From NCBI RefSeq assembly GCF_937873615.1, contig NZ_CALMYP010000035.1, forward strand, positions 1 through 64,000: DNA of 64,000 nt, in the 5' to 3' direction. Position numbers and translations under genes: made by a program. This DNA is from an uncultured Paracoccus sp. Lineage in GTDB: Bacteria > Pseudomonadota > Alphaproteobacteria > Rhodobacterales > Rhodobacteraceae. Numbering within the stretch: position 1 is the first letter of the stretch; the number at the start of each line of letters is the position of its first letter. Below, in pieces: positions 2,630 through 64,000 of the stretch. The notes beneath the pieces are model-generated. The model saw nothing but the letters and a program-made list of their open reading frames with translations, did no database searches and was not told the origin of the DNA.

Positions 2630-4081
2630 ATGACCACAGTCATCAAGAACGGAACCATCGTCACCGCCGACCTGACCTACAAGGCCGATGTGCTGATCGA
2701 GGGCGGCAGGATCGCGGCGATTGGCGAGAACCTCTCGGGCGATGAGCAGTTGGACGCGACCGGATGTTACATCATGCCGGGCGGGATCGACCCGCATACG
2801 CATCTGGAAATGCCCTTCATGGGCACTTACTCCACCGACGACTTTGAGTCCGGCACCCGCGCGGCGCTGGCAGGCGGCACGACCATGGTGGTGGATTTCG
2901 CGCTGCCCTCGCCCGGGCAGGGGCTGCTCGATGCGCTCAAGATGTGGGACAACAAGTCGGGCCGCGCGCATTGCGATTACTCCTATCACATGGCCATCAC
3001 CTGGTGGGGCGAGCAGGTCTTCGACGAGATGGAGGCGGTGGTGAAGCGCGGCATCACCAGCTTCAAGCATTTCATGGCCTATAAGGGCTCGCTGATGGTG
3101 AACGATGACGAGATGTTCGCCAGCTTCCGCCGGGTCGGCGATCTGGGCGGGATCGCGCTCGTCCATGCCGAAAACGGCGATGTGGTGGCGGAACTTTCGT
3201 CGCGGCTGCTGGCCGAAGGAAATACCGGCCCCGAGGCCCATGCCTATTCCCGCCCGCCGCAGGTCGAGGGCGAAGCCACGAACCGCGCCATCATGGTGGC
3301 CGATATGGCGGGCGTGCCGCTTTATGTTGTCCATACCAGTTGCGAGGACAGCCACGAAGCCATCCGCCGCGCCCGCCAACAGGGCAAGCGCGTCTGGGGC
3401 GAGCCCTTGATCCAGCACCTGACGCTGGACGAAAGCGAATATTTCAACCCCGACTGGGACCATGCTGCGCGCCGAGTCATGTCGCCGCCGTTCCGCAACA
3501 AGCTGCATCAGGACAGTCTCTGGGCCGGGCTGCAATCGGGCAGCCTGTCCTGCGTCGCCACCGATCATTGCGCCTTCACCACCGATCAGAAGCGCCATGG
3601 CGTGGGCGATTTCACCAAGATTCCGAACGGGACCGGGGGGCTGGAAGACCGGATGCCGATGCTCTGGACCCATGGCGTCAATACCGGGCGGCTGACCCCG
3701 AATGAATTCGTCGCCGTCACCTCGACCAATATCGCCAAGATCCTGAACATGTATCCGAAGAAGGGCGCGGTGCTGGTCGGCTCGGATGCCGATCTGGTGG
3801 TCTGGGACCCCGAGGCGGAGAAGACCATTTCGGCGGGCAGCCAGCAATCCGCGATTGATTACAATGTCTTCGAGGGCCAGCATGTGAAGGGCCTGCCGCG
3901 CTATACGCTGACGCGCGGGGTCGTTGCGGTGCGTGAGGGCAAGGTGGACAGCCACGAGGGCCATGGCGAATTCGTCGCCCGCGAACCGCGCGGACAGGTG
4001 AACCGGGCGCTGAGCGCATGGAAAGAACTGACCGCGCCAAGGCCGGTGGAACGGTCGGGCATTCCGGCGAGTGGGGTTTGA
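2630..4081 (+). CDS. hydA: Dihydropyrimidinase (D-hydantoinase family)
   Basis: This amidohydrolase-superfamily enzyme opens the ring of dihydrouracil/dihydrothymine, and often of 5-substituted hydantoins. Numbered from the ATG at 2630 (483 residues, normal length), the di-zinc ligands are visible: His56 and His58 in DPHTHLE, Lys146 in TSFKHFMAYKG (carbamylated in the family), His179, His235 and Asp312 in ATDHCAF. An ATG at 2615 would add five residues, but GAGACGG sits just before 2630. It lies between the ureidopropionase and the ABC importer and overlaps the latter if that gene uses its GTG start. Confidence 0.95.
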   Translation: MTTVIKNGTIVTADLTYKADVLIEGGRIAAIGENLSGDEQLDATGCYIMPGGIDPHTHLEMPFMGTYSTDDFESGTRAALAGGTTMVVDFALPSPGQGLLDALKMWDNKSGRAHCDYSYHMAITWWGEQVFDEMEAVVKRGITSFKHFMAYKGSLMVNDDEMFASFRRVGDLGGIALVHAENGDVVAELSSRLLAEGNTGPEAHAYSRPPQVEGEATNRAIMVADMAGVPLYVVHTSCEDSHEAIRRARQQGKRVWGEPLIQHLTLDESEYFNPDWDHAARRVMSPPFRNKLHQDSLWAGLQSGSLSCVATDHCAFTTDQKRHGVGDFTKIPNGTGGLEDRMPMLWTHGVNTGRLTPNEFVAVTSTNIAKILNMYPKKGAVLVGSDADLVVWDPEAEKTISAGSQQSAIDYNVFEGQHVKGLPRYTLTRGVVAVREGKVDSHEGHGEFVAREPRGQVNRALSAWKELTAPRPVERSGIPASGV

Positions 4082-4862
4082 CTTGAACGAGCCTGTGATC
4101 GTCGCAGACGGCATCGACCTGACCTTCCAGACCGCCGACGGCCCGGTCCATGCGCTGAAAGGCGTGGATCTGACCATCAACCAGGGCGATTTCGTCAGCT
4201 TCATTGGGCCAAGCGGCTGCGGCAAGACCACGCTTCTGCGGACCATCGCGGCGCTGGAGACGCCGACCGGTGGCGCGCTGTCCGTGAACGGCATGACCCC
4301 GGACGAGGCGCGGCGTGCCCGTGCCTACGGTTATGTCTTTCAGGCGCCGGGCCTCTATCCCTGGCGGACGATTGCACAGAATATCGCCCTTCCGCTGGAG
4401 ATCATGGGCTTTGCCAAGGCGGACCGCATGGAACGCGTGGAACGCGTGCTGGAACTGGTCGATCTGGCCGGTTTCGGGGCGAAATATCCGTGGCAGCTTT
4501 CGGGCGGGATGCAGCAGCGCGCCTCCATCGCCCGCGCGCTCTCCTTCGATGCCGACATCCTGCTGATGGACGAACCCTTCGGTGCGCTTGACGAGATCGT
4601 CCGCGACCGGCTGAACGAGGCGCTGCTGGAACTCTGGGCGCGGACGGCCAAGACCATCGGTTTCGTCACCCATTCAATCCCCGAGGCGGTGTTTCTGTCG
4701 ACAAAGATCGTGGTCATGTCGCCGCGCCCCGGCCGGATCACCGATGTGATCGAAAGCACCCTGCCGCGCACCCGCCCGCTGGAGATCCGCGACACGCCCG
4801 AATTCCTTGCCATCGCCCATCGCGTCCGCGAGGGGCTGCGCGCCGGTCACGCCTATGACTAG
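4071..4862 (+). CDS. ABC transporter ATP-binding protein, SsuB/TauB type
   Basis: This 263-residue ATPase belongs to the nitrate/sulfonate/taurine/pyrimidine-precursor importer class. Visible motifs are Walker A GPSGCGKTT (around residues 45-53), Q-loop FQAPGLYPW, signature LSGGMQQR, Walker B ILLMDEPFGALD and the switch His in FVTHSIPEA. The start is uncertain: GTG at 4071 overlaps the end of hydA by 11 bases, while a TTG at 4083 would follow its stop by one base. The gene order ATPase, two permeases, NMT1-type binding protein directly downstream of hydA implies import of a pyrimidine, dihydropyrimidine or hydantoin; the substrate is inferred from context only. Confidence 0.9.
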   Translation: MGFDLNEPVIVADGIDLTFQTADGPVHALKGVDLTINQGDFVSFIGPSGCGKTTLLRTIAALETPTGGALSVNGMTPDEARRARAYGYVFQAPGLYPWRTIAQNIALPLEIMGFAKADRMERVERVLELVDLAGFGAKYPWQLSGGMQQRASIARALSFDADILLMDEPFGALDEIVRDRLNEALLELWARTAKTIGFVTHSIPEAVFLSTKIVVMSPRPGRITDVIESTLPRTRPLEIRDTPEFLAIAHRVREGLRAGHAYD

Positions 4863-6608: not shown

Positions 6609-7592
6609 ATGAAAACCTATCTGACCGGCCTTATGGCCGCGCTGCTGCCGGCGGCGGCCTTCGCGGCGGATGACGTGACGCTGCAGTTGAAATGGGTGAC
6701 GCAGGCCCAGTTCGCGGGCTATTACGTGGCGCTCGACAAGGGGTTCTACGAGGCCCAGGACCTGAACGTCACCATCAAACCGGGCGGCCCCGACATCGCG
6801 CCGCCGCAGGTCATGGCCGGCGGCGGCGCCGATGTCATGGTCGACTGGATGCCATCCGCCTTGGCCGCGCGCGAAAAGGGGCTGGCACTGGTGAACATCG
6901 CCCAGCCGTTCAAGGCCTCGGGCATGATGCTGACCTGCCGCGCCGATAGCGGCGTGAAAACGCCCGAGGATTTCAAGGGCAAGGTTCTGGGCGTCTGGTT
7001 CGGCGGCAACGAATACCCGTTCCTGACCTGGATGGCGACGCTCGGCCTGCCGACGACCGGCGGCGCGGATGGGGTCGAGGTGCTGAAACAGGGCTTCAAC
7101 GTCGATCCGCTGCTGCAAAGCCAGGCCGCCTGCATCAGCACCATGACCTATAACGAATACTGGCAGCTGATCGAGGCGGGGATGACGCCGGAGGAGTTGG
7201 TGACCTTCAAATATGAAGATGAAGGCGTGGCCACGCTGGAGGACGGGCTTTATGTGATGGAGGACAAGCTTTCCGATCCGGCATTTGTCGACAAGATGGC
7301 CCGCTTCGTGAAGGCCAGCATGGAGGGCTGGAAATATGCCGAGGAAAACCCGGACGAGGCGGCGATGATCGTGCTCGACCATGACGAGACCGGCGCCCAG
7401 ACCGAGGAACACCAGAAGCGCATGATGTCCGAGGTCGCCAAGCTGACCGCCGGATCCGATGGCAGCCTCGACCCGGCGGATGCCGAGCGCACGGTGAAGA
7501 TCCTGATGGCCGGGGGTTCCGATCCGGTGATCTCGAAGGAGCCGGAAGGTGCATGGAGCCATGAGGTGACCGACAAGGCGCTTGCCCAGTAA
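6609..7592 (+). CDS. ABC transporter substrate-binding protein, NMT1/THI5-like
   Basis: This is the periplasmic receptor of the importer. Residues 1-19 form a signal peptide (MKTYLTGLMAALLPAAAFA, then ADD). The mature part has the NMT1-like pattern: LQLKWVTQAQFAGYYVALDKGFYE near the N-terminus, a GGP-DIAPPQVMAGGGADVMVDW ligand-loop region and a KVLGVWFGGNEY hinge. Family members bind pyrimidine precursors, riboflavin, nitrate or sulfonates. Because the four transporter genes share an operon with pyrimidine-degrading enzymes, a pyrimidine or hydantoin is the most likely ligand. Confidence 0.9.
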   Translation: MKTYLTGLMAALLPAAAFAADDVTLQLKWVTQAQFAGYYVALDKGFYEAQDLNVTIKPGGPDIAPPQVMAGGGADVMVDWMPSALAAREKGLALVNIAQPFKASGMMLTCRADSGVKTPEDFKGKVLGVWFGGNEYPFLTWMATLGLPTTGGADGVEVLKQGFNVDPLLQSQAACISTMTYNEYWQLIEAGMTPEELVTFKYEDEGVATLEDGLYVMEDKLSDPAFVDKMARFVKASMEGWKYAEENPDEAAMIVLDHDETGAQTEEHQKRMMSEVAKLTAGSDGSLDPADAERTVKILMAGGSDPVISKEPEGAWSHEVTDKALAQ

Positions 7593-7642
7593 ACTTCTGC
7601 GCCGAGCCTTCGGGTCCGGCGCATCCAGCGAAAGGAGGCACC

Positions 7643-7930
7643 ATGCCCAAGGCCTATTGGATCGCCCATGTGACCGTCACCGATCCCGAACCCTACAAGC
7701 TTTATGCCGAGGGCGCGTCCGAAGCCTTCCGCCAGTTCGGCGCCCGTGTGCTGGCGCGGGGTGGCGCTGCGCAGCAGATGGAGGGTGAGGGCCATCCGCG
7801 CAATGTGGTGATCGAGTTCGACAGCATGGAGGACGCGCTCGCCTGCTATCGCTCCGACGCCTATCAGCGGGCGAAGCAGCACCGCGAGGGTGCCGGCATC
7901 GCCCAGATCACCCTGGTCGAGGGCGTCTAG
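7643..7930 (+). CDS. DUF1330 family protein
   Basis: This small 95-residue soluble protein has the dimeric alpha/beta-barrel pattern of DUF1330: AYWIAHVTVTDPEPYKLYAEGA near the start, GEGHPRNVVIEFDSMEDALACY in the middle and SDAYQRAK. The molecular function of the family is not established. AAAGGAGG lies at good spacing before the ATG. It is the last rightward gene after the importer, 50 bases after the binding protein, and probably belongs to the same transcript. It converges on the next operon with only 14 bases between the two stops. Confidence 0.85.
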   Translation: MPKAYWIAHVTVTDPEPYKLYAEGASEAFRQFGARVLARGGAAQQMEGEGHPRNVVIEFDSMEDALACYRSDAYQRAKQHREGAGIAQITLVEGV

Positions 7931-7944
7931 CCCCGAGCTTCTGC

Positions 7945-9669
7945 CTATTCCGCCGCGACCAGATGGCCGCCGCCGGCATCCTGCAGGCTGACCCGCGCCG
8001 GGCCTTCGCCGACCGGCCAGACCGGGCTTGGCACCTCGGTTGCCATGCGCGGGGCCGGGGGGCGGAGATGCGCGGGGTCGGGCACCGGCACGGCCTCGAT
8101 CAGGCGGCGCGTATAGGGGTGGCGCGGATTGCCGAAGATCTGGGCGCGGCTGCCCATCTCCACGATCTGGCCCAGATACATGACCGCGATCCGGTCGCTG
8201 ATATTCTCGACCACCGCCATGTCGTGGCTGATGAACAGGTAACTGATGCCGAATTCCGATTTCAGTTCCGCCAGCAGGTCCAGCACCTTCGCCTGAACCG
8301 AGACATCCAGCGCAGACACGCTTTCATCGGCGACGATCAGCTTCGGTTGCAGGGCAAGCGCGCGGGCGATGCAGATACGCTGGCGCTGCCCGCCCGAGAA
8401 TTCATGCGGATAGCGGTCGATCTGCTCGCCCGACAGGCCGACCCGGTTGAACAGGTCGCGCACCCGCGCCCGCCGCTCGGCCGGGGTGCCGATGCGGTGG
8501 ATCACCAGCGGCTCGGCCACCAGATCGCCGACGCGCTTGCGCGGGTTCAGGGCGGCGGCGGGGTCCTGAAACACCATCTGCACGTCGCGCCGCAGGGCCG
8601 GGCTGGCGCTGAGCCCGTCCTCGGGGACCTTATGGCCCGCGACCTCGATCAGGCCGCGATGCGGGACCAGCCCGGTGATGGCGCGGGCGATGGTGGATTT
8701 GCCGCAGCCGGATTCGCCGACCAGCGAGAAGGTCTCGCCGGCGCGGATGTCGAAGCTGACATGCTCGACCGCATGGACGCGGTGGGTGGTGCGACCAAGC
8801 AGCCCGCCATGGATGTCGTAGCGCACGCGCAGATCCCGCAGCACCGCGATGGGGGCGGCGGCGACGGGCGCGGCACCGCTGCCATCGCCCATGCGCGGCA
8901 CGGCGGCCAGCAGGGCGCGGGTATAGGGTTGCTCGGGGGCGGAGAAAATGCGTTCGACCGGGGCGGCCTCGACCATGCGGCCGGATTGCATGACGATCAC
9001 CCGGTCGGCCATCTCGGCCACCACGCCCATGTCATGGGTGATCAGCACGATGGCGGTGCCGGTCTCGCGCTGCAGGTCGCGCAGCAGGTCCAGCACCTCG
9101 CGCTGCACGGTCACGTCAAGCGCGGTCGTCGGCTCATCGGCGATCAGCACATCGGGTTTCAGTGCCAGCGCCATGGCGATCATGACCCGCTGGCGCATCC
9201 CGCCGGAGAGTTCATGCGGATATTGGCCCATGCGGCGCTCGGGCTGCGACAGGCGCACGGCCCGCAGCGCTTCCAACGCCAGTGCCTTTGCATCGGCATC
9301 CGGATCATGGGCGCGTATCGCCTCGGCCAGCTGGTTGCCGATGGTCAGGACCGGGTTCAGCGAGGTCATCGGCTCCTGGAAGATCATGGCGATGCGGTCG
9401 CCGCGAATGGCGCGCATCCGGCGTTCGGGCAGGCGGGTCAGATCCTCGCCAGCAAGCTCGATCCGGCCCGAGTCCACCTTCACGCCGGGCGGCAGCAGCC
9501 CCATCACCGCCAGCGAGGTGATCGACTTGCCCGAGCCGGATTCCCCGGCGATGCACAGCGTTTCCCCCCGCGCCAGCTTGAAGGAGAGGTCCGAAACCAG
9601 CGGCTTCGGACCCGTTTCGGTATCGACCGCGACCGTCAGGTCGCGGACGGAGAGCACCGGCTCGCTCAT
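7945..9669 (-). CDS. Dipeptide/oligopeptide-type ABC transporter, fused DppD-DppF ATPase
   Basis: This 574-residue protein contains two complete ATP-binding domains in one chain, as in GsiA. The first has Walker A GESGSGKS near residue 43, signature LSGGMRQR and Walker [12 protein letters not shown]. The second has [16 protein letters not shown] and [13 protein letters not shown] peptide-transporter C-terminal extension ([20 protein letters not shown]) follows the second domain. It is the last gene of the leftward amide operon, and its start overlaps the end of the acetamidase gene by 4 bases. It powers the DppBC-type permeases encoded upstream in the same operon. Confidence 0.93.
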
Positions 9670-54474: not shown

Positions 54475-54605
54475 CTGGGGGGAGGTTCCTTACGAAAGCA
54501 GCGCTTGCTTGACCCGAGGGCCGGGGGGTGGTGTCTTGCGCGCTGTGTAGGCCAAGCGCAAATGGCTTTCAACTTGGATCGGGACGGAAAAGGAAGGGAA
54601 CTCCG

Positions 54606-55472
54606 ATGGCAAAGCTGGCATTTCTGGGACTGGGCGTGATGGGTTACCCGATGGCGGGCCATCTGGCCAAGGCGGGGCACGAGGTCACCGTCTATAACCG
54701 CACTGCCGCCAAGGCGCAGAAATGGGCCACCGAGCATGGCGGCAAGGCGGCCATCACCCCGCGAGAGGCGGCTGAGGGGGCCGAGATCGTTCTGGCCTGC
54801 GTCGGCAATGACGACGATCTGCGCAGCGTCTGTCTGGGCGATGACGGCGCTTTCGCCGGCATGGGCAAGGGCACGATCTTCGCCGATCACACCACGGTTT
54901 CCGCCCGCGTGACCCGCGAACTGGCCGAGGCCGGCGCGGCCCTGGGCATCGGTTTTGTCGATGCGCCGGTCTCGGGCGGGCAGGCGGGGGCCGAGAATGG
55001 GCAGCTCTCGATCATGTGCGGCGGCGGCCAGCGGGATTTCGACCGGGTTCAGCCGATCGTCGACAGCTATGCCAAGATCTGCCGGCTGATGGGGCCGGTG
55101 GGTGCCGGCCAGACCACCAAGATGTGCAACCAGATCGCCATTGCCGGGCTGGTGCAGGCGCTTTCGGAATCGCTGCGTTTCGCCGAGGCCTCGGGCCTCG
55201 ATATCGAGAAGGTGGTCGAGGTGATCAGCCAGGGCGCCGCCGGAAGCTGGCAGATGGCGAACCGCCACAAGACCATGGCGGCGGGCGCGTTCGAGCACGG
55301 TTTCGCCGTCGACTGGATGCGCAAGGATCTGGGCATCTGCCTGTCGACCGCCGACGATCTGGAGGTCAGCCTGCCGGTCACGGCGCTTGTCGATCAGTTC
55401 TACAAGGATGTGCAGATGATGGGTGGGGGCCGCTGGGATACCTCGTCGCTGATCGCGCGGCTGCGGCGATAA
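54606..55472 (+). CDS. NAD(P)-dependent beta-hydroxyacid dehydrogenase
   Basis: This 288-residue enzyme has the 3-hydroxyisobutyrate/tartronate-semialdehyde/sulfolactaldehyde reductase fold. Seen are GLGVMGYPMAGHLAKAG (cofactor), the substrate loop DAPVSGGQAGAENGQLSIM and the catalytic Lys in GAGQTTKMCNQIAI. The ATG at 54606 gives the conserved N-terminus and follows GGAAGGGAA. It converges on the TRAP binding-protein gene with a hairpin between. Relatives include YihU, which reduces sulfolactaldehyde, but nothing here proves that substrate. Confidence 0.9.
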   Translation: MAKLAFLGLGVMGYPMAGHLAKAGHEVTVYNRTAAKAQKWATEHGGKAAITPREAAEGAEIVLACVGNDDDLRSVCLGDDGAFAGMGKGTIFADHTTVSARVTRELAEAGAALGIGFVDAPVSGGQAGAENGQLSIMCGGGQRDFDRVQPIVDSYAKICRLMGPVGAGQTTKMCNQIAIAGLVQALSESLRFAEASGLDIEKVVEVISQGAAGSWQMANRHKTMAAGAFEHGFAVDWMRKDLGICLSTADDLEVSLPVTALVDQFYKDVQMMGGGRWDTSSLIARLRR

Positions 55473-55517: not shown

Positions 55518-56576
55518 TCAGTTCATTTCCGACTGGCGCTCGGCATCGAGTTCGGCGGTTGCTGCCGCCACCGATGCGTTCAGGGCCTCAAGCGCCTCGG
55601 GCCCGCCTTCGACATTGGCGTTGAACCAGTCATAGACCGGCTGGGCGGCGTCGAAGAAGGCCTGCTTCTCCTCGGGCGTCGGCACATAAAGATCGCCGCC
55701 TGCGGCCACGAAATCCTCGTAAGCCTGGATCGACTTGCGCTTGGGGCTGGCGAAGGTCGCCTGCTGCAACTGATAGAAGCCGTCGACGACGACGCGGCGC
55801 AGGTCCTCGGGCATTTCCATGAAGCGGTCGTTCGACATGAACCAGAAGGCGCCCATATAGCCGTGGCCGTCCAGCGTCATGTATTTCACCCCGGCATCGG
55901 GGAATTTCATGTTCATGACATCGGTGATGCCGTTCTTGGTGCCCTCGACCACGCCGGTCTGCAACGAGGTGAACAGTTCCGGCCACGGGATCGGCGTGGG
56001 CGAGGCGCCAAGCGCCTTGACCAGTTCCTGTGGCAGTTCCGCATCGACCGTGCGCAGCTTCATCCCGGCCAGATCGGCGGGGGTCTGCACGCGCTGTTTG
56101 GTATTGGCGAAGTTGCGCCAGCCGCCGGTATTGCCGATGGTCATCAGCCGGATACGCCCGCCGCTGCTGTCCAGCATCATCTGGCGCAGCTTGGGGGTGA
56201 ACTTGTCATCCATCAGCACCCGCTCGGCCAGGCGGTCGTCGGTCAGCAGATAGGGCAGGTCCATGACCTGGATATAGGGGAAGATCCCCGCCGCGCCGCC
56301 CGAGGTCGAGATGAAAATGTCGATGGAGCCGTCGGCGATGCCCTGAAGGCATTCGGCACCGTTGCCGCAAAGCTGGGTGCCGATGAACAGCTCGACCGCG
56401 ATGGCGCCGTTCGAGGCGCTTTCGACATAGTTCTTGAAGACGACGAGACCGTCGTAATCCTCGTCCTGGTCGTTGGAATTGGCGGTGGCGCGCAGGGTGA
56501 ATTCCTGTGCCGCAGCCATCCCGGCCAGCCCCAGCGAGGCGCCAAGCGCCAATACGGCAAGCGTTTTCTTCAACAT
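55518..56576 (-). CDS. TRAP transporter substrate-binding protein, DctP-type
   Basis: This 352-residue periplasmic receptor has a signal peptide (MLKKTLAVLALGASLGLAGMAAA, then QEFTL). DctP landmarks: GTQLCGNGAECLQGIADGSIDIFIS near residue 70, PADLAGMKLRTVDAELPQELVKALGASPTPIPWPELFTSLQTGVVEGTKN and the conserved Arg in KLRTV, which binds a carboxylate (or here perhaps a sulfonate). It heads the list of the smo-like operon's transport genes, although it lies last in transcription. A GTG at 56579 precedes the ATG. The ligand is inferred to be sulfoquinovose or its glycerol glycoside. Confidence 0.92.
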   Translation of the reverse strand: MLKKTLAVLALGASLGLAGMAAAQEFTLRATANSNDQDEDYDGLVVFKNYVESASNGAIAVELFIGTQLCGNGAECLQGIADGSIDIFISTSGGAAGIFPYIQVMDLPYLLTDDRLAERVLMDDKFTPKLRQMMLDSSGGRIRLMTIGNTGGWRNFANTKQRVQTPADLAGMKLRTVDAELPQELVKALGASPTPIPWPELFTSLQTGVVEGTKNGITDVMNMKFPDAGVKYMTLDGHGYMGAFWFMSNDRFMEMPEDLRRVVVDGFYQLQQATFASPKRKSIQAYEDFVAAGGDLYVPTPEEKQAFFDAAQPVYDWFNANVEGGPEALEALNASVAAATAELDAERQSEMN

Positions 56577-56608
56577 CACTCTCTCCCTTGTTCAAACGGT
56601 GACATGGT

Positions 56609-57901
56609 TCAGTCGGCAAAGCCGGTCAGGCGCGGGATCGCCATGGACAGGGCCGGAATATAGGTGATCAGGAAGATTACCGCGACCTCGACCGCGAGGA
56701 ATGGCAGGATCGCGCGCGAAATCGTCGAGATCCGCTCCCCCGAGACCGAGGAGGCGACGAAAAGCACCAGCCCCATCGGCGGCGTGATCAGGCCCACGGT
56801 CAGGTTCACACTCATGATGATAGCGAAATGGATCGGGTCGACGCCGAGGCTGGTGAAGACCGGGCCAAGCACCGGCCCGAGGATGATGATCGCCGGCCCG
56901 GCATCGAGGAACATGCCGACGATGAACAGCAGGATATTGATGAGAAACAGCAGGATCAGTGGGTTTTCCGACAGGCTCAGGATCACATCGGCCAGGATTT
57001 CCGGCGCGTGCGACAGGCTGACCACGGTCTTGAAGGCCATGGCCGCGCCGACCAGCAACAGCACCACTGCCGAGGTCGCGGCAGAGCGCTGGAAGATGCC
57101 GCCCAGCTCGCGGAATTTCAGCGTGCGCATGACGAAAAGCCCGATCACCAGCCCGTAAGCGGCGGCGACGGCGGCGGCCTCGGTCGGGGTGAAGATGCCG
57201 CCCAGAATGCCGCCCATGATGATGACCGGGGTCATCAACGGGAAAAAGGCCTTCAGGCTGGCGCGGCCCTTCTCGGCCCAGTTGGTGCGGCGGCTGGCGA
57301 TGGGGAAATCGTAGCGGTCGGCCATGACCTTGACCATCAGCATCAGCGACAGCCCGACAAGTGCGCCGGGCACGATCCCCGCCAGAAACAGCGCCGCCAC
57401 GCTTTCGCCCATGACATAGGCATAGATGATCATGATCCCCGAAGGCGGGATGATCGGGCCGATCACGCTCGAAGCTGCCGTGATCGCGGCCGAGAAGCGG
57501 CGGGTATAGCCCTGCTTTTCCATTGCCGGGATCAGCATCGAGCCAAGCGCCGAGGTATCGGCCACGGCGGACCCGGACAGCCCGGCAAACAGCATCGAGG
57601 ACAGGATGTTCACATGCGCCAGCCCGCCGCGCAGATGGCCCATCAGCGCCTGACTGAATTCGACCAGTCGCTCGGTGATGCCGCCCCGGTTCATCAACTC
57701 GCCGGCCAGCATGAAGAAGGGGATGGCCATCAGCGGAAAGCTGTCCATGCCATTGTAGACATTGCGATAAAGCAGCGCGACATCGCGTTCCTGCCCGTTC
57801 AGCCAGAGCAGGATGCCCGGGGCGGCCAGAAGCGCGAAGAAGACCGGCAGGCCGATCATCAGGAAGATCAGGAAGACCGGCAGGAACCAGATCAGCATCA
57901 C
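56609..57901 (-). CDS. TRAP transporter large permease, DctM-type
   Basis: This 430-residue permease has about twelve membrane segments and normal length, unlike the one at 24-26 kb. Motifs: PLMAIPFFMLAGELMNRGGITERLVEFSQALMGH, GSAVADTSALGSMLIPAMEKQGY, GPIIPPSGIMIIYAY, TPTEAAAVAAAYG and NLTVGLITPPMGLVLF. Its start overlaps the DctQ stop by 4 bases. With the DctQ and DctP it forms a complete importer. Confidence 0.93.
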   Translation of the reverse strand: MMLIWFLPVFLIFLMIGLPVFFALLAAPGILLWLNGQERDVALLYRNVYNGMDSFPLMAIPFFMLAGELMNRGGITERLVEFSQALMGHLRGGLAHVNILSSMLFAGLSGSAVADTSALGSMLIPAMEKQGYTRRFSAAITAASSVIGPIIPPSGIMIIYAYVMGESVAALFLAGIVPGALVGLSLMLMVKVMADRYDFPIASRRTNWAEKGRASLKAFFPLMTPVIIMGGILGGIFTPTEAAAVAAAYGLVIGLFVMRTLKFRELGGIFQRSAATSAVVLLLVGAAMAFKTVVSLSHAPEILADVILSLSENPLILLFLINILLFIVGMFLDAGPAIIILGPVLGPVFTSLGVDPIHFAIIMSVNLTVGLITPPMGLVLFVASSVSGERISTISRAILPFLAVEVAVIFLITYIPALSMAIPRLTGFAD

Positions 57902-58488
57902 TCGGCCTCCGTCGCGGCAAGGGGGGTGATCGGGATCAGCCTTGCCTCATTGCCCAGAAGCGAGACGAAGCTGCGCAGGATCAGCTCGATATTGGCGAGC
58001 GCGATCAGCAGGAAGCCGATGAAGATCGACAGATACATCCAGGCCAGCTTGACCCGCACCACGCCAAGCCCGAAAGCCTCCAGGTGCAGTTTCAGCGAGG
58101 CCGAGTTGAAGAGCCAGCCGGAATCGACATGCTTCCAGCCGTATTTCAGCGCGAAGGCCAGCACGAGCGCCGAGATCAGCAGCAGGATCAGGTGAAGGAA
58201 ACTCGCCGCGCGCCGGGGCAGGGCCACGTCCAGCATGTCGATGGCGACAAAGCCGCCCCGGCGATAGATGGCCGGTGCGGCCAGCCCGGTCATCCACAGC
58301 ATCAGGAACCGCGCGGCTTCCTCGGGCCAGGGCAGGGCATTGTTCAGCACATAGCGGAAGAAGACCTGGATCAGGATCACCGCCACCATCAGCGCCAGCA
58401 GCACCGCCGCCAGAACCGAGCCCGCCGGCAGCAGGCGCGTGTTGAGCCATTGCAGCGGCGCAAGCACCGCAAGCAGGATCGTCGTCAT
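57898..58488 (-). CDS. TRAP transporter small permease, DctQ-type
   Basis: This 196-residue protein has four membrane segments and the DctQ block FRYVLNNALPWPEEAARFLMLWMTGLAAPAIYRRGGFVAIDML. GGGGAAGG precedes the ATG at 58488. It is 25 bases after the flavin reductase stop, so transport and catabolic genes share the transcript. Confidence 0.92.
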   Translation of the reverse strand: MTTILLAVLAPLQWLNTRLLPAGSVLAAVLLALMVAVILIQVFFRYVLNNALPWPEEAARFLMLWMTGLAAPAIYRRGGFVAIDMLDVALPRRAASFLHLILLLISALVLAFALKYGWKHVDSGWLFNSASLKLHLEAFGLGVVRVKLAWMYLSIFIGFLLIALANIELILRSFVSLLGNEARLIPITPLAATEAE

Positions 58489-58513
58489 CTGCCTTCCCCC
58501 CCGTGCGGTCCTG

Positions 58514-59017
58514 TCAGCCGCGATGTGCGAATCCGCCGATCCGTCCCTTGTAGAACAGAAGCGGCGCACCGTCAGTCATGGTCGCCCTCTCGACCGCGCC
58601 GACGACGATGGCATGATCGCCGGCGTCATGGATTGCCGACATCCGGCATTCGAAACGGGCCAGACAGCCCTCGATCAGCGGCGTGCCGGCGGTGCCGATC
58701 GACCAGTCCAGCCCGTCGAAACTGTCCTGCGCGCGGGCGAAGCCGTGGCAGATCGCATCCTGTTCATGCGACAGCACATGGATGGCGAAATGCCTGGCAT
58801 TGGCGAAATGGGTGAAGCGGCGCGAGGATTTGGCTGGCGACCAGAGAACAAGCGCCGGCTCCATCGAGACCGAGGCGAAGCTGTTCGCGGTGATCCCGAC
58901 CGGCCCGGCGGCAGAGCCCGTGGTGACGACCGTGACCCCGGTGCCGAAACGGCCGAGCGCGTCGCGATAGGCGCGCGAATTCTCGGGCGAGGGGGTGAAG
59001 CTGTGGTGATGCTGCAT
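58514..59017 (-). CDS. Flavin reductase (FMN-binding split barrel), partner of the monooxygenase
   Basis: This 167-residue NAD(P)H:flavin reductase has the family pattern: YRDALGRFGTGVTVVTT, VGITANSFASVSMEPALVLWSPAKSSRRFTHFANARHFAIHVLS, and the C-terminal GDHAIVVGAVERATMTDGAPLLFYKGRIGGF. Such enzymes deliver FMNH2 to a partner oxygenase. The monooxygenase is two genes upstream in the same operon, so the pairing is likely, comparable to SmoA with SmoC in sulfoquinovose breakdown. Confidence 0.9.
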   Translation of the reverse strand: MQHHHSFTPSPENSRAYRDALGRFGTGVTVVTTGSAAGPVGITANSFASVSMEPALVLWSPAKSSRRFTHFANARHFAIHVLSHEQDAICHGFARAQDSFDGLDWSIGTAGTPLIEGCLARFECRMSAIHDAGDHAIVVGAVERATMTDGAPLLFYKGRIGGFAHRG

Positions 59018-59028
59018 GGCGATCCCCC

Positions 59029-59922
59029 TCAGGGCACTTCGAAACCGTTGCCAAGCTCGTAAAGCTCGAACCAGGTTTCGCGGTCCAGGGTGACGCGCAG
59101 CGCATCCGACATCGAGCGGATGCGGTTCAGGTTATTGGTGCCCAGAACCGGGATGATCCGTGCCGGATGGCGCAGCAGCCAGGCGATGGCGATGGCGGTG
59201 GCATCGGTGCCGTGATCGGCGCCGATCTCGGACAGGCGCGCCAGCAGCTCCGGGTGCGATCCGTCGAAAAGCGCACCGCCCGCCAGCGGCGACCAGGCCA
59301 TGGGCGGGACGCCGCGTTCCTGCAAGAAGGCCAGATCGCCATTACGGAAGGGCTCGCTGCTCAGCAGGCTCAGCTCGATCTGGTTGGTCACCAGCGGCGT
59401 CTTCATCGCCGATTGCAGCAGCGTCCAGTCGAACAGCCGGAAGTTCGACACACCGACCGCGCGCACCTTGCCGGTGGTGACCAGTTCGTCCAGCACGGCG
59501 CCGGTTTCATGCGCGTCCATCAGCGGATCGGGGCGATGGATCAGCAGCAGGTCCAGATAGTCCAGCCCCATCTCGGCCAGCGACCGCTCGACCGAGGCCA
59601 GGATATGCGCCCGCCCGGTGTCGTAATGCTTGATCCGCCGGTCGGGAAATTTCTCGGACAGCAGCGCGATATCGGCCTTGGAGACGATCTCGATCCGCTC
59701 GCGCAACTCGGGCGCGGATTTCAGCGCCTGACCCAGCACAAGCTGGCTTTCGTAATTGCCGTAGATGTCGGCCTGATCGAAGCTGGTGATGCCCTGTTCC
59801 AGACAGGCGTCGATCTTGGCGCGGACATGGGCCGCGCCGGTATCGGCATCCTCGGCCAGCCGCCACATGCCATAGACGATGCGGCTCAGTTCGAGGTCGC
59901 CGTTCAATGCGATCCGTTCCAT
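59029..59922 (-). CDS. Aldo/keto reductase, SmoB-like by context
   Basis: This 297-residue reductase has the full aldo/keto tetrad: Asp49 and Tyr54 in TSFDQADIYGNYE, Lys82 in EIVSKADI and His129 in DLLLIHRPDPL. NADPH-binding residues of the barrel C-terminus are visible in RIIPVLGTNNLNRIRS. In the sulfoquinovose monooxygenase route the 6-oxo-glucose released by desulfonation is reduced to glucose by such an enzyme. The start shares one base with the monooxygenase stop. The YdhF-type general reductase is the alternative. Confidence 0.9.
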   Translation of the reverse strand: MERIALNGDLELSRIVYGMWRLAEDADTGAAHVRAKIDACLEQGITSFDQADIYGNYESQLVLGQALKSAPELRERIEIVSKADIALLSEKFPDRRIKHYDTGRAHILASVERSLAEMGLDYLDLLLIHRPDPLMDAHETGAVLDELVTTGKVRAVGVSNFRLFDWTLLQSAMKTPLVTNQIELSLLSSEPFRNGDLAFLQERGVPPMAWSPLAGGALFDGSHPELLARLSEIGADHGTDATAIAIAWLLRHPARIIPVLGTNNLNRIRSMSDALRVTLDRETWFELYELGNGFEVP

Positions 59923-61079
59923 CAGCGGCGTTCTCCGTTGCCAAGGGGGGTGGCGGGGGTGCTGGCCGGGACGCGGCCATATTCCTGCGGCAGAGAGCAG
60001 GTCTTCAGATGCGGCATGACCAGCCGGCCGAAATGCTCTGCCTCCTCGATATGCGGATAGCCCGAGAAGATGAAGGCGCGGATGCCCATCTTCCTGTAAT
60101 CCTCGATGGCCGACAGCACCTGATCGGCGGAGCCGACAAGCGCCGCCCCACAGCCCGAACGCGCGCGCCCGACACCGGTCCAGAGGTTCGGCTCGATGAA
60201 GCCGTCCATATCCGCCAATTCGCGGTTCCTGGCTTGGTGCGACACGCCCAGGGATCCCGCATCCAGTGCCCGTTCCCGGATGGCGCGGCCCTGTTCGTCA
60301 TCCAGTTTCGAGACCAGCTCGCGTGCATATTCCCGCGCCTCGGCCTCGGTCTCGCGCACGATCATATGCACGCGCAGCCCGTAATCCAGCGTCCTTCCAT
60401 GGCGTTCGGCAACCGCGTTTACCGCCTTCATGCGCCCGGCCAACTCGTCCTTCGTTTCCGGCCACATCAGATAGACATCGCAATGCTGGCCGCAAAGCTC
60501 CAGCGCGTCGGGGCTGTAGCCGCCGAAATAAAGCAGCGGCCCGCCATTCTGCTGATAGGGTTTTGCCGGCTCGGTGGTCACGCCGTGGAACTGGTAGACT
60601 TGGCCGTCATGGTTGATCTCGTCCTGTGTCCAGGCCTGTTTCAGGATTTCGACCACCTCGCGCGAGCGTTGATAGCGAAAGGCGCTGTCGGCCTTCTCGC
60701 CGGGAAAATCGCTGCTGATGATATTCACGGTCAGCCGGCCCCGCAGCATGTGATCCAGCGTCGCGATGGTGCGCGCAAGCATGATCGGCTGCATCTCGCC
60801 GCAGCGGACGGCGGCCAGCAGGTTGATCTTGTCGGTGATCGGCGCGCAGCCGGCGACGAAGCTCAGCGTATCCTGCCCGACCTGATAGGAGGAGGGGCAC
60901 AGGATATTGCGGAACCCCTGCGCTTCGGCCGTCTTCACGATGTCGGAACAATGTTCCCAGCTTGAGCGCAACCCGCCCTCGGGCACACCGAGATAGCGGT
61001 AATCGTCCGAACAGAGCGCGGAGAACCACGACACTTCGGCGGCGTCCAGCCCTGCGGAGGTGATCGGAACGATGCTCAT
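59922..61079 (-). CDS. FMNH2-dependent sulfonate monooxygenase (luciferase-like), SmoC-like by context
   Basis: This 385-residue LLM-class oxygenase is related to alkanesulfonate monooxygenase SsuD. Features: [65 protein letters not shown], and [34 protein letters not shown], as in SsuD. GCGAGGA supports the ATG at 61079 over the ATG at 61097. It is the first gene of the leftward operon that includes a flavin reductase, an aldo/keto reductase and a TRAP importer, so oxidative desulfonation of an imported sulfonate is likely. The exact substrate is inferred. Confidence 0.9.
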
Positions 61080-61165
61080 AACATGTATCCTCGCCATTGA
61101 ATTTGGACTTGCATAGCAGCGTCTTTAATGTAGATCAATAGTGTATCAATTCTTGCGAACGAGCC
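61080..61165. promoter_or_regulatory. Divergent promoter region of the sulfosugar-type locus
   Basis: This 86-base AT-rich gap separates the monooxygenase from the GntR regulator. It holds a direct repeat ATCAAT (61134-61139 and 61145-61150) and an ATTGA (61096-61100) that is its complement. The GntR protein probably binds here to control both arms. Confidence 0.5.
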
Positions 61166-61867
61166 ATGCCGAACCATCACGCCCTGCCGATCTACCTGCA
61201 ACTCAGCGAACTTGTAGCGCGAGAAATCGCCGCCGGGCTGCTTCTGGACGGCGAGCGTCTGCCGCCGGAACGCGAGATGGCGGCGCGGCTTGGCACCTCG
61301 GTCGGGACGCTGCGCAAGGCGCTTGCCGAACTGACGGAACGCGGGCTTCTGGAACGCCGGCAGGGCTCGGGCAATTATGTGCGCGCCCGGCCCGATGCGC
61401 AGAATGTCTATGCCTTCTTCCGGATCGAGCTTCTGGGCGGCGGCGGCCTGCCGCAGGCAAGGCTGCTGTCGCTCGATCGGGTGGCGAAGCCCGCCGATCT
61501 GCCGGATTTCGGCACCTCGCCCGAGGCCTTCCGCATCCGCCGGTTGCGCAGCCTGAACGGCAAGCCCTGCGTGCTGGAGGAGATCTGGCTCGATGGCAGC
61601 TATGCCCCCGAGATCGCCGAGCGCGACCTGTCGGAATCGCTTTACCTTTTCTATCGCAAGCGGCTGAACCTCTGGATCGCGCGGGCCGAGGATCGCGTCG
61701 GGCAGGGCATCGTCCCGGTCTGGGCGCCCGGCGAATACGAACCGCCCACCGGCTGCACGACCGGCTATTTCGAGCGGATCAGCTTCGATCAGGACAACCG
61801 GCGCGCCGAATATTCGCGCAACTGGTTCGACACCACAATTGCCACCTATGTGGCGCGTATCAGGTAG
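61166..61867 (+). CDS. GntR-family regulator with UTRA ligand domain
   Basis: This 233-residue repressor has an N-terminal winged helix-turn-helix (residues 8-75: IYLQLSELVAREIAAGLLLDGERLPPEREMAARLGTSVGTLRKALAELTERGLLERRQGSGNYV) and a C-terminal UTRA domain that usually binds a sugar phosphate or related ligand. It lies between the two arms of the sulfosugar-type locus and is probably its specific regulator, responding to sulfoquinovose or a product. The start codon at 61166 follows GCGAACGAGCC. Confidence 0.9.
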   Translation: MPNHHALPIYLQLSELVAREIAAGLLLDGERLPPEREMAARLGTSVGTLRKALAELTERGLLERRQGSGNYVRARPDAQNVYAFFRIELLGGGGLPQARLLSLDRVAKPADLPDFGTSPEAFRIRRLRSLNGKPCVLEEIWLDGSYAPEIAERDLSESLYLFYRKRLNLWIARAEDRVGQGIVPVWAPGEYEPPTGCTTGYFERISFDQDNRRAEYSRNWFDTTIATYVARIR

Positions 61868-61877
61868 GGCTTCGGGT

Positions 61878-63011
61878 ATGGCGACGGACGCAATCAGCTA
61901 TGGCATCATCGGCTGCGGGATGATGGGGCAGGAACATCTGCGCAATATCCGCCTGCTGCCCGGCGCGCGGATCGCCGCGATCCATGAACCCGATGCCGGG
62001 ATGCGCCAGGCGGCGGCGCAGATCGCGCCCGAGGCGGGGTTCTTTGATACGCTCGATGACCTGCTGGCGCGGAGCGATCTGGATTGCCTGGTCATCGCCT
62101 CGCCCAATGCCGCGCATATCGGCCAGTTGGAACGCATCGCCGAAGGCCGGGCGCTGCCGGTGCTGGTGGAAAAGCCGATCTTCACCCGCGCCGAGGATCG
62201 CGCCCGGCTGGAGGCGCTGCGCGCGGGCTATCCGGCGCCGGTCTGGGTGGCGATGGAATATCGCTATATGCCGCCGATCGCTGCCTTCCTGAACCGGCTC
62301 AATGCCGCGACCGGCGGAATGCAGATGCTCTCGATCCGCGAACATCGCTTTCCCTTCCTGCCCAAGGTCGGGGCCTGGAACCGCTTCAACCGCAATTCCG
62401 GCGGCACCATGGTCGAGAAATGCTGCCATTTCTTCGATCTCATGCGGCTGGCCACCGGGGCCGAGCCCGTGCGGATCATGGCCAGTGCCGGGCAGGCCAT
62501 CAATCACCGCGACGAGCGTTACGGCGATGAGACACCCGATATCTGGGACAACGGCTATGTCATCGTCGATTTCGACAATGGCGCGCGCGCCATGCTGGAT
62601 CTGTGCATGTTCGCCGAAGGCGCCCGCTATCAGGAGGAAATCACCGCCACCGGCGCGCATGGTCGCATCGACGCGCTCGTGCCCGGGCCGGGGCGGTTCT
62701 GGCCGGCGCATCTGGGCGCGGCCCCGGTGCCGCAGCTGATCGAAAGCCCGCGCGCGCCGAAAGGCCCGGTTGCCATCGACATCCCGGTCGATCCGGCGCT
62801 TCTGGCCGCCGGCGACCATAATGGCGCGACCTTCTTCCAGCACCAGAAATTCGCCGCCGTCGTGCGCGGCGAGGCAGAGCCCGAGGTCGGGCTGGAGGAT
62901 GGCATGAAAGCGGTGCTCATGGGCCTCGCGGCACAGGAATCGGCGCTGAGCGGTCAGGCTGTGATGCTGGACCTTGCCGCCGAACCCGCGCCCGCCAAGG
63001 TGTCGGCGTGA
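61878..63011 (+). CDS. Gfo/Idh/MocA-family oxidoreductase, possible NAD+-dependent sulfoquinovosidase
   Basis: The 377-residue product has an N-terminal Rossmann domain (GxGxxG at residues 12-17, IIGCGMMGQEH; EKP at 98-100) and a C-terminal alpha/beta domain. The conserved catalytic-region motif is GGTMVEKCCHFFDLMR (E180 to D187), with His184. Some members of this fold are not dehydrogenases but NAD+-using glycosidases; a Roseobacter-group family (GH188) releases sulfoquinovose from its glycosides. The locus has a monooxygenase route for sulfoquinovose but no GH31 enzyme in view, so this is a plausible sulfoquinovosidase. A dehydrogenase role remains possible. It overlaps the next gene by 4 bases. 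Confidence 0.85.
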   Translation: MATDAISYGIIGCGMMGQEHLRNIRLLPGARIAAIHEPDAGMRQAAAQIAPEAGFFDTLDDLLARSDLDCLVIASPNAAHIGQLERIAEGRALPVLVEKPIFTRAEDRARLEALRAGYPAPVWVAMEYRYMPPIAAFLNRLNAATGGMQMLSIREHRFPFLPKVGAWNRFNRNSGGTMVEKCCHFFDLMRLATGAEPVRIMASAGQAINHRDERYGDETPDIWDNGYVIVDFDNGARAMLDLCMFAEGARYQEEITATGAHGRIDALVPGPGRFWPAHLGAAPVPQLIESPRAPKGPVAIDIPVDPALLAAGDHNGATFFQHQKFAAVVRGEAEPEVGLEDGMKAVLMGLAAQESALSGQAVMLDLAAEPAPAKVSA

Positions 63012-64000
63012 ACCTTCGCACTTCCGCCTTCAAGCGCGCCGATGCCTTCCTGAGACCGCTGCTGCCGGGTCTGCTGGTCGCCACGCTGGTGGCCATTGCC
63101 GCGCAATTCGTGGCCGAGCATTACGGCGCACCGGCAATGCTGATGGCGCTGCTGTTCGGAATCGCGCTGAACTTTCTGGGGTCCGAGCCGCGCTCCGCCC
63201 CCGGTATTGCCTTTGCGTCCCGCGGCGTGTTGCGGATCGGGGTGGCGCTGCTGGGCGCGCGCATCACCGCCTCGCTCCTGTCGGATCTGGGCTGGACGGT
63301 GGTGCTGCTTCTGGTGCTCTCGACCATCGTAACGATCCTGTTCGGCATGGCGCTTGGCCGGGTGCTGGGGCAGGGGCCGCGCTTTTCGATCCTGACGGCG
63401 GGGGCGGTGGCGATCTGCGGGGTTTCCGCCGCCATGGCCATCGCCGCCGTCCAGCCGCAAAGCGACCGTTCCGAGCGCAACCTGACCTTTACCGTTCTGG
63501 GCGTCACCCTGCTGTCGACCATGGCGATGATCCTTTATCCCGCCATCGTCGCCTGGCTGGGCCTGTCCGATCACCGGGCCGGGATCTTCATCGGCGGCAC
63601 CGTGCATGACGTGGCGCAGGTGATCGGTGCCGGCTTCTCGATCTCGCCCGAGGCGGGCGAGACGGCGACACTGGTCAAGCTGATCCGGGTCAGCCTGCTG
63701 GCGCCGGTGGTGCTGGTCCTGTCGCTGGCCTATCGCAACAGCCCGCGCCCCGAGGGCCGCGCTACGGTCCCGATCCTGCCCGGTTTCGTGATCGGCTTCG
63801 CGGCACTGGCGGCCCTGTCCGCGTTTGGCCTGATCCCCGAGGCGCTTCGCGACCTGCTGGCGCATCTGTCGGGTTGGGCGCTGCTGGTGGCGATTGCCGG
63901 GGTGGGGCTGCGCACCCGGCTCGATTCCATGCTGGAGGTGGGGCCGCGCCCCATCGCGCTGCTGTTCGGGCAGACCGCCTTCCTTGGCGTCTTCATTCTG
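63008..64000 (+). CDS. YeiH-family putative sulfite/sulfate exporter (5' part, runs off the window)
   Basis: This gene starts at a GTG sharing GTGA with the preceding stop, and 331 codons are visible. The protein is hydrophobic throughout, with about nine or ten membrane segments. Family pattern: AEHYGAPAMLMALLFGIALNFLG, RGVLRIGVALLGARITASLL, ILTAGAVAICGVSAAMAIAAV, IFIGGTVHDVAQVIGAGFSISPEAGETATLVKLIRVSLLAPVVLVLSLAYR. Members are annotated as putative sulfate exporters. In a sulfonate-degrading locus, export of the sulfite made by the monooxygenase is the logical role. The end of the gene lies beyond the window. Confidence 0.9.
   Translation, partial: MNLRTSAFKRADAFLRPLLPGLLVATLVAIAAQFVAEHYGAPAMLMALLFGIALNFLGSEPRSAPGIAFASRGVLRIGVALLGARITASLLSDLGWTVVLLLVLSTIVTILFGMALGRVLGQGPRFSILTAGAVAICGVSAAMAIAAVQPQSDRSERNLTFTVLGVTLLSTMAMILYPAIVAWLGLSDHRAGIFIGGTVHDVAQVIGAGFSISPEAGETATLVKLIRVSLLAPVVLVLSLAYRNSPRPEGRATVPILPGFVIGFAALAALSAFGLIPEALRDLLAHLSGWALLVAIAGVGLRTRLDSMLEVGPRPIALLFGQTAFLGVFIL

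Follow-up and report, generated by a model that had tools for sequence, protein, structure and literature searches.

Sulfoquinovose (SQ) is the sugar of the plant sulfolipid, and its breakdown by the sulfoquinovose monooxygenase (sulfo-SMO, also sulfo-ASMO) pathway is a known bacterial process. Here we describe a locus for this pathway in a 64,000-nucleotide stretch of DNA (hereafter, the window) from an uncultured Paracoccus sp. of the Rhodobacteraceae, comprising positions 1-64,000 of contig NZ_CALMYP010000035.1 in assembly GCF_937873615.1. The sulfoquinovosidase of Agrobacterium belongs to family GH31, whereas that predicted in the window belongs to GH188. The core of the window locus, namely the monooxygenase SmoC, the aldo/keto reductase SmoB and a flavin reductase, is the same as that of the system in Agrobacterium tumefaciens and Novosphingobium aromaticivorans, whose products are sulfite and glucose (PMC12890257). 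That system has an ATP-binding cassette (ABC) importer for sulfoquinovosyl glycerol (SQGro), according to PMC9594981, while the window has a tripartite ATP-independent periplasmic (TRAP) transporter. Closer still are the sulfo-SMO clusters of the marine Roseobacter clade, which share the core and in which, according to PMC10755693, GH188 is near-universal and GH31 absent; the text consulted names no importer for them. The window locus is of this type, and the combination of GH188 with sulfo-SMO is thus already published in that source.

The sequence-only reading of this DNA had proposed oxidative desulfonation of SQ served by a TRAP importer. Its core, the assignment of the locus to sulfo-SMO, is supported by the analysis below; the inference was sound but incomplete. 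The locus is very probably a complete sulfo-SMO cluster fed by the TRAP transporter.

Identity of the monooxygenase and aldo/keto reductase

The closest solved relative of the monooxygenase is PDB chain 7olf, matched over the whole length (729 bits, 80.2% identity over 384 aa), followed by 7oh2 (703 bits, 78.1% identity). We take both to be SmoC, their PDB names being methanesulfonate sulfonatase / alkanesulfonate monooxygenase. The next chains, named alkanesulfonate monooxygenase, score only 201 bits (7jv3) and ∼191 bits (1nqk/1m41). An alternative assignment to SsuD was ruled out by these low scores and by the equivalog model TIGR03565, which the protein matches at 252 bits against a cut-off of 518.2. 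Both contrasts go against one of the findings that would have refuted the earlier reading, a monooxygenase of the SsuD type, and on their strength the monooxygenase is assigned as a SmoC orthologue, far from SsuD. The aldo/keto reductase encoded beside it matches 7bby at 421 bits (64.5% identity over 296 aa), with the next distinct protein at 218 bits. This chain carries the PDB name aryl-alcohol dehydrogenase and is presumably SmoB, and the window protein is assigned by homology as a SmoB orthologue.

The distribution of these genes was assessed in a sample of 248 genomes of the window's family, its own genome included, with thresholds of E ≤ 1e-100 for SmoC, E ≤ 1e-50 for DctP and E ≤ 1e-60 for GH188. 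SmoC was matched in 106 genomes (among them a partial copy with an internal stop in G597) and GH188 in 128 (some matches being fragments). The rarity of the arrangement that the earlier reading had implied did not hold, as the arrangement is common in the family. A class-wide sample of 385 genomes gave 21 matches to SmoC, nine of them with 74-100% identity and the other 12 with 50-54%. The latter, from G009, G018, G121, G123, G143, G225, G227, G249, G311, G329, G334 and G356, appear on identity to be a separate group and are not called SmoC.

Gene order was compared in 80 loci from named genomes, these being the best 80 of 584 relatives and hence biased to close relatives of the window. The order GH188-GntR|SmoC-aldo/keto reductase-flavin reductase is found in 66 of the 80 and is not due to chance. 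At a 40% identity floor, and with some loci short, the genes present were GntR (79), GH188 (75), aldo/keto reductase (74), flavin reductase (74), DctP (56), DctM (56), DctQ (54) and YeiH (14).

The GH188 sulfoquinovosidase

The protein encoded downstream of the GntR regulator had been named as a Gfo/Idh/MocA family member, which was correct as far as it went; its identity as a sulfoquinovosidase had been missed. Its best PDB match is 8zn9 (526 bits, 65.0% identity), deposited merely as 'Oxidoreductase, putative', followed by the SqgA chains 8qc2 and 8qc3 (364 and 362 bits), after which the next match falls to 62 bits. SqgA proteins are the founders of GH188, a family of NAD+-dependent sulfoquinovosidases, and the roles of their residues, including the sulfonate-binding triad R166/L170/K172, are given in PMC10755693. 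The window protein is 48.5% identical to 8qc3 and shares with it the fold family, the sulfonate triad and those catalytic residues that could be mapped: all eight active-site positions of ArSqgA considered (K107, Y136, R166, L170, K172, E189, H193 and H321) are kept. The position of ArSqgA E163 is occupied by V in the 8qc3 row and by R in the window, with an E one place further in both. Score and residues together identify the protein, at sequence level, as a GH188 NAD+-dependent sulfoquinovosidase (SqgA). An inositol dehydrogenase was also considered, the IolG model scoring 100.6 bits against a cut-off of 355, and the GH188 match was preferred. No GH31 domain (PF01055) was found in the window's genome.

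SmoC and GH188 are linked in 99 of the 105 family genomes that hold both. This linkage bears on the proposal that the locus serves to degrade some other sulfonate or sulfosugar, perhaps an alkanesulfonate or another 6-sulfo hexose, and that SQ is a side substrate. Related luciferase-like (LLM) monooxygenases do use other sulfonates, and the monooxygenases for alkanesulfonate and dimethylsulfone are among the distant homologues here, but with 80% identity to SmoC, GH188 as a steady neighbour and an intact sulfonate triad we regard that proposal as highly improbable and retain SQ as the predicted substrate.

The SqgA sequence starts directly with its Rossmann domain, and no signal peptide was seen by eye, no predictor having been run. 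Since the enzyme needs NAD+ and begins in this way, it would act in the cytoplasm and the glycoside itself should be imported, making SQGro import likely.

A candidate TRAP importer shared with sulfo-EMP-type loci

All three TRAP subunits, DctP (PF03480), DctQ (PF04290) and DctM (PF06808), are present, and they stand in the place of the SmoF-type ABC importer genes, which are absent from the window cluster. The window's own genome holds 21 matches to DctP including itself, yet the best paralogue is only 30% identical. DctP was found in 89 of the 248 family genomes, at ≥64% identity in 86 (64-75% outside the window's genome) and at 39-50% in three. SmoC and DctP occur together in 63 genomes, within 12 kb of each other in 59 and on different contigs in four. 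In 77 of the 86 genomes with the closer DctP, SmoC or GH188 is no more than 12 kb away from it; in a further four, SmoC and GH188 are on contigs different from that of DctP, leaving five (L133, L136, L137, L138 and L139). Fisher tests, in which relatedness is ignored, gave p = 2.5e-11 for DctP with SmoC and p = 1e-26 for DctP with GH188.

Solved structures were of little help with specificity. DctP has no near relative among them, the best being 4p47 at 125 bits; the sialic acid binders (SiaP, ∼102-104 bits) and the isethionate binder 8t9t (100 bits) belong to the same family and are too distant for their substrates to be transferred.

More informative were the 26 family genomes with DctP and no SmoC, in all of which the stretch around DctP was examined. 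In 19 of them (L114-L132), DctP and GH188 are at most 12 kb apart, the DctP of L130 being 50% identical to that of the window. A sulfoquinovose-isomerase-like gene is found in 17 of these 19, accompanied by a PfkB-type kinase in 15 and a LacD-type aldolase in 14. Protein families were scanned in one locus, L114, and the other loci were assigned by sequence clustering. L114 encodes a protein matching the sulfoquinovose isomerase model NF048012 with 252 bits (short of the cut-off, 700), a PfkB kinase, a tagatose-bisphosphate-type aldolase, an aldose epimerase, an aldehyde dehydrogenase, a 2-hydroxyacid dehydrogenase and both subunits of sulfopyruvate decarboxylase, each above cut-off. On this gene content, the 17 loci are read as clusters of the sulfoglycolytic Embden-Meyerhof-Parnas (sulfo-EMP) type, with GH188 and TRAP. 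Sulfopyruvate decarboxylase subunits occur in some of L114-L132, which suggests that sulfolactate is further converted into sulfoacetaldehyde. The window's own genome has only a 29% partial match to the isomerase-like protein, so there is no indication that it has a sulfo-EMP-type route as well.

A tree built quickly from 86 DctP rows (57 SMO-linked including the window, 17 EMP-linked, eight other and four rooting paralogues) placed 79 of them in one clade with a Shimodaira-Hasegawa-like approximate likelihood ratio (SH-aLRT) of 100. It was made without bootstrap, leaves 35 of 82 inner branches open and is rooted on paralogues with very long branches. The clade comprises all 57 SMO-linked, 16 of the 17 EMP-linked and six of the eight other rows. 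SMO- and EMP-linked proteins are intermixed within it, requiring a minimum of seven switches between SMO and EMP, of which at least four are forced by starred branches under either label.

With one DctP clade linked to two unrelated pathways, the simplest reading of these comparisons is that the TRAP transporter would carry what both share, SQ or its glycoside. The prediction that DctP binds SQGro and/or SQ is thus well supported by context but unproven, and we consider it likely that the DctPQM clade is a dedicated SQGro/SQ importer, a module moved several times between oxidative desulfonation and sulfo-EMP glycolysis. The sequence-only reading had a TRAP system replacing the ABC importer; comparative genomics, through the linkage, the tree and the EMP-type loci, now lends that claim its backing. 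The enzymes could instead act on SQ while the transporter, co-opted into the operon, imports something else that the cells meet, such as a sugar acid or a different sulfonate. The diversity of the nearest solved DctPs and the SmoC genomes that do without DctP would suit such an arrangement, but it would have to accommodate a DctP that in 77 of 86 genomes is close to GH188 or SmoC, across two pathways that are unrelated apart from a common substrate, as well as the intermixing on the tree, and we judge it improbable. SQGro/SQ import therefore remains our preferred reading. The literature searched yielded nothing on uptake of sulfoquinovose by TRAP transporters, which is not a claim of absence from print; two sources that contain both terms (PMC10507020 and PMC6386719) deal with taurine, to judge by the opening of their abstracts.

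Several SmoC-less loci are mentioned here as side observations. L134 and L135 hold DctP relatives at just 39-49% identity. The TRAP genes lie beside an SMO-type flavin reductase in L133 and beside an SMO-type aldo/keto reductase in L136, both without SmoC. L138 (3010-9896) has an aldo/keto reductase, a flavin reductase and TRAP genes running to the contig end, again with no SmoC; a Rieske/ring-hydroxylating oxygenase gene on the other side of its aldo/keto reductase (3010-4173) is a conceivable substitute for SmoC. L137 and L139 have TRAP and a MauG-like gene on one stretch and GH188 on another contig. An SMO-type GntR and GH188 adjoin TRAP and a MauG-like gene in L125 (6153-14076), a stretch with neither SmoC nor EMP genes.

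The MauG-like di-heme protein (PF03150) has two CxxCH motifs in its L114 copy (7547-9295). Of the 56 SMO loci with this TRAP, 47 carry its gene, which in 41 follows DctP at a distance of ≤600 bases; among the 17 EMP-type TRAP loci, 14 have it. The window lacks it, and no better match exists in the genome than one of 39% identity over part of the protein. A literature search on sulfoquinovose and cytochrome c peroxidase returned nothing on SQ breakdown, as judged by title.

ABC genes take the place of TRAP in four (L143, L145, L149 and L150) of 14 loci examined from the 43 genomes that have SmoC without DctP. The ABC family scan covered the binding protein of L149 (PF01547), which could not be called SmoF as no solved chain scored above 41.5 bits. 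At ≥40% identity, the L149 binding protein is found in two of the 80 named loci and its permease in eight.

Sulfite disposal

The YeiH-family protein, whose copy is cut at the window edge, matches TIGR00698 at 153 bits against a cut-off of 233, and no solved relative was found. The gene runs in the same direction as sqgA, and the two frames share four bases at the sqgA end. From this family-level match, a role as the sulfite exporter is plausible. A different role, as an exporter of sulfate or another anion, or even as an importer, is possible but the less likely choice: the name of the model goes no further than 'putative sulfate export transporter' and the position of the gene varies between loci, while the overlap with sqgA and the need of the pathway to dispose of one sulfite per sugar favour sulfite export.

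Predicted regulation

The region between smoC and gntR was taken from 79 loci and from the window, and the motif TTGAT-N6-TTGAT, a predicted operator, was found in 79 of these 80, within the consensus AAAAATTGATACACtATTGATcTAC; the exception, L042, has TTGAT-N6-TTGCT. The motif did not occur in single-base shuffles, and chance would not be expected to produce it in the window. The window's site is unique in its own genome with ≤3 mismatches, the pattern having been taken from that site. TTGATN followed by TAyGCA is present in 61 of the 80 intergenic sequences, and the gap is 17 bases in all 61, which suggests that the pair represents the -35 and -10 elements of smoC.

A stricter form of the operator pattern was found in 11 of 14 further SMO loci (L140-L153), being missing in L145, L146 and L151. 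In L143, smoC and gntR are apart and each has its own operator copy; in L150, the operator is kept at smoC and gntR is elsewhere. Only one of the 26 SmoC-less loci has the operator. This is L118, an SMO-type remnant (operator, GH188, aldo/keto reductase, DctM, DctP and, by eye, the start of gntR) that has lost smoC from its place between the aldo/keto reductase and gntR.

Locus organisation

All nine genes listed in the sequence-only reading were recovered as open frames at the places described, with Pfam families in agreement with the names given (Table 1). An alternative ATG for smoC lies upstream at 61097 and would add six residues. The YeiH gene ends at ∼64027 of the contig, ∼27 bases beyond the window (3009-4028 of L084, which is contig 60000-78000). 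The cluster appears to end there, as the next genes scanned encode SURF1 and cytochrome/quinol oxidase subunits.

Table 1. Genes and predicted regulatory elements of the sulfo-SMO locus, in window coordinates.
Feature	Position	Strand	Evidence or remark
DctP, TRAP solute-binding protein	55518-56579	-	PF03480, 185 bits
DctM, TRAP large membrane subunit	56609-57901	-	PF06808, 393 bits; TIGR00786 above cut-off
DctQ, TRAP small membrane subunit	57898-58488	-	PF04290, 88.6 bits
smoA-like flavin reductase, predicted supply of reduced flavin mononucleotide (FMNH2)	58514-59017	-	PF01613, 137 bits
smoB, predicted aldo/keto reductase (6-dehydroglucose to glucose)	59029-59922	-	PF00248; 64.5% to 7bby
smoC, predicted FMNH2-dependent sulfoquinovose monooxygenase	59922-61079	-	80.2% to 7olf
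Predicted -10 of smoC, TATGCA	61110-61115	-	Inferred from conservation
Predicted GntR operator, AATTGATACACTATTGATCTAC	61130-61151	-	TTGAT-N6-TTGAT between smoC and gntR
Predicted -35 of smoC, TTGATC	61133-61138	-	Inside operator; inferred from conservation
GntR/UTRA (HutC-type) regulator	61166-61867	+	PF00392 and PF07702; divergent from smoC
sqgA, predicted GH188 NAD+-dependent sulfoquinovosidase (Gfo/Idh/MocA)	61878-63011	+	65.0% to 8zn9
YeiH-family membrane protein, putative sulfite/sulfate exporter	63008-64000, past window edge	+	PF03601, 235 bits

At the other end, a gene for a 3-hydroxyisobutyrate/2-hydroxy-3-oxopropionate reductase-like protein (54528-55472) converges on DctP. It was found at only two of the 80 named loci (L004 and L005), and is therefore taken to be a neighbour and not a pathway gene. 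The first of these, from Paracoccus aurantiacus, has the order YeiH-GH188-GntR|SmoC-aldo/keto reductase-flavin reductase, then the reductase, 85% identical to that of the window; by eye, the long frame flanking this reductase is the same as in the window. The second, from Paracoccus isoporae (L005, 10001-12306), has smoC followed directly by the flanking reductase, with the aldo/keto reductase, flavin reductase and TRAP absent within the locus.

Proposed pathway

With the order of reactions taken from characterised homologues, the DctPQM transporter would import SQGro and/or SQ to the cytoplasm, where SqgA, with NAD+ as its catalytic cofactor, would split the glycoside into SQ and glycerol. 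The flavin reductase would make FMNH2, with which SmoC and O2 would turn SQ into 6-dehydroglucose and sulfite; SmoB would then reduce 6-dehydroglucose to glucose, and YeiH would probably expel the sulfite. The GntR/UTRA protein may repress both arms of the locus through TTGAT-N6-TTGAT, which lies over the smoC -35, until a pathway ligand relieves the repression. Within this scheme the sequences themselves show what SmoC, SmoB, SqgA and the TRAP subunits are, how the genes are linked and that the operator is conserved, whereas the ligand of the transporter, the export of sulfite and the direction of regulation are predictions.

A number of observations weigh against this scheme. The flavin reductase is SmoA-like by a family-level match (PF01613) only, scoring 215 bits to the FerA model NF052639 with its cut-off of 260. 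YeiH was near SmoC in just the 14 loci counted above, and no Mo-co_dimer sulfite oxidase was found in the genome, other types of sulfite oxidase not having been searched. A strict sigma-70 consensus scan of the promoter region found no site where 1.5 were expected, so the -35/-10 reading is taken solely from conservation. G407, the sole congener in the family sample, is without SmoC, DctP or GH188. This DctP is lacking in 43 of the 106 SmoC genomes of the family, and P. aurantiacus, with a SmoC 91% identical to that of the window, has no TRAP genes at the locus and no DctP match above 29% in its genome; the TRAP transporter is thus not obligatory for sulfo-SMO clusters.

Implications

The locus is a genuine, complete sulfo-SMO locus of the GH188/TRAP type, widespread in the window's family, and its novelty is modest. 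What the comparison adds is support for a shared TRAP importer, together with a predicted operator: one candidate of each is named, and both are directly testable in cultured strains. The comparison also yields a marker for SQ clusters without SmoC. If the proposal is true, the DctPQM clade would be the way in for sulfosugars in many bacteria of the family, and a sulfonated sugar glycoside would be added to the substrates of TRAP transporters.

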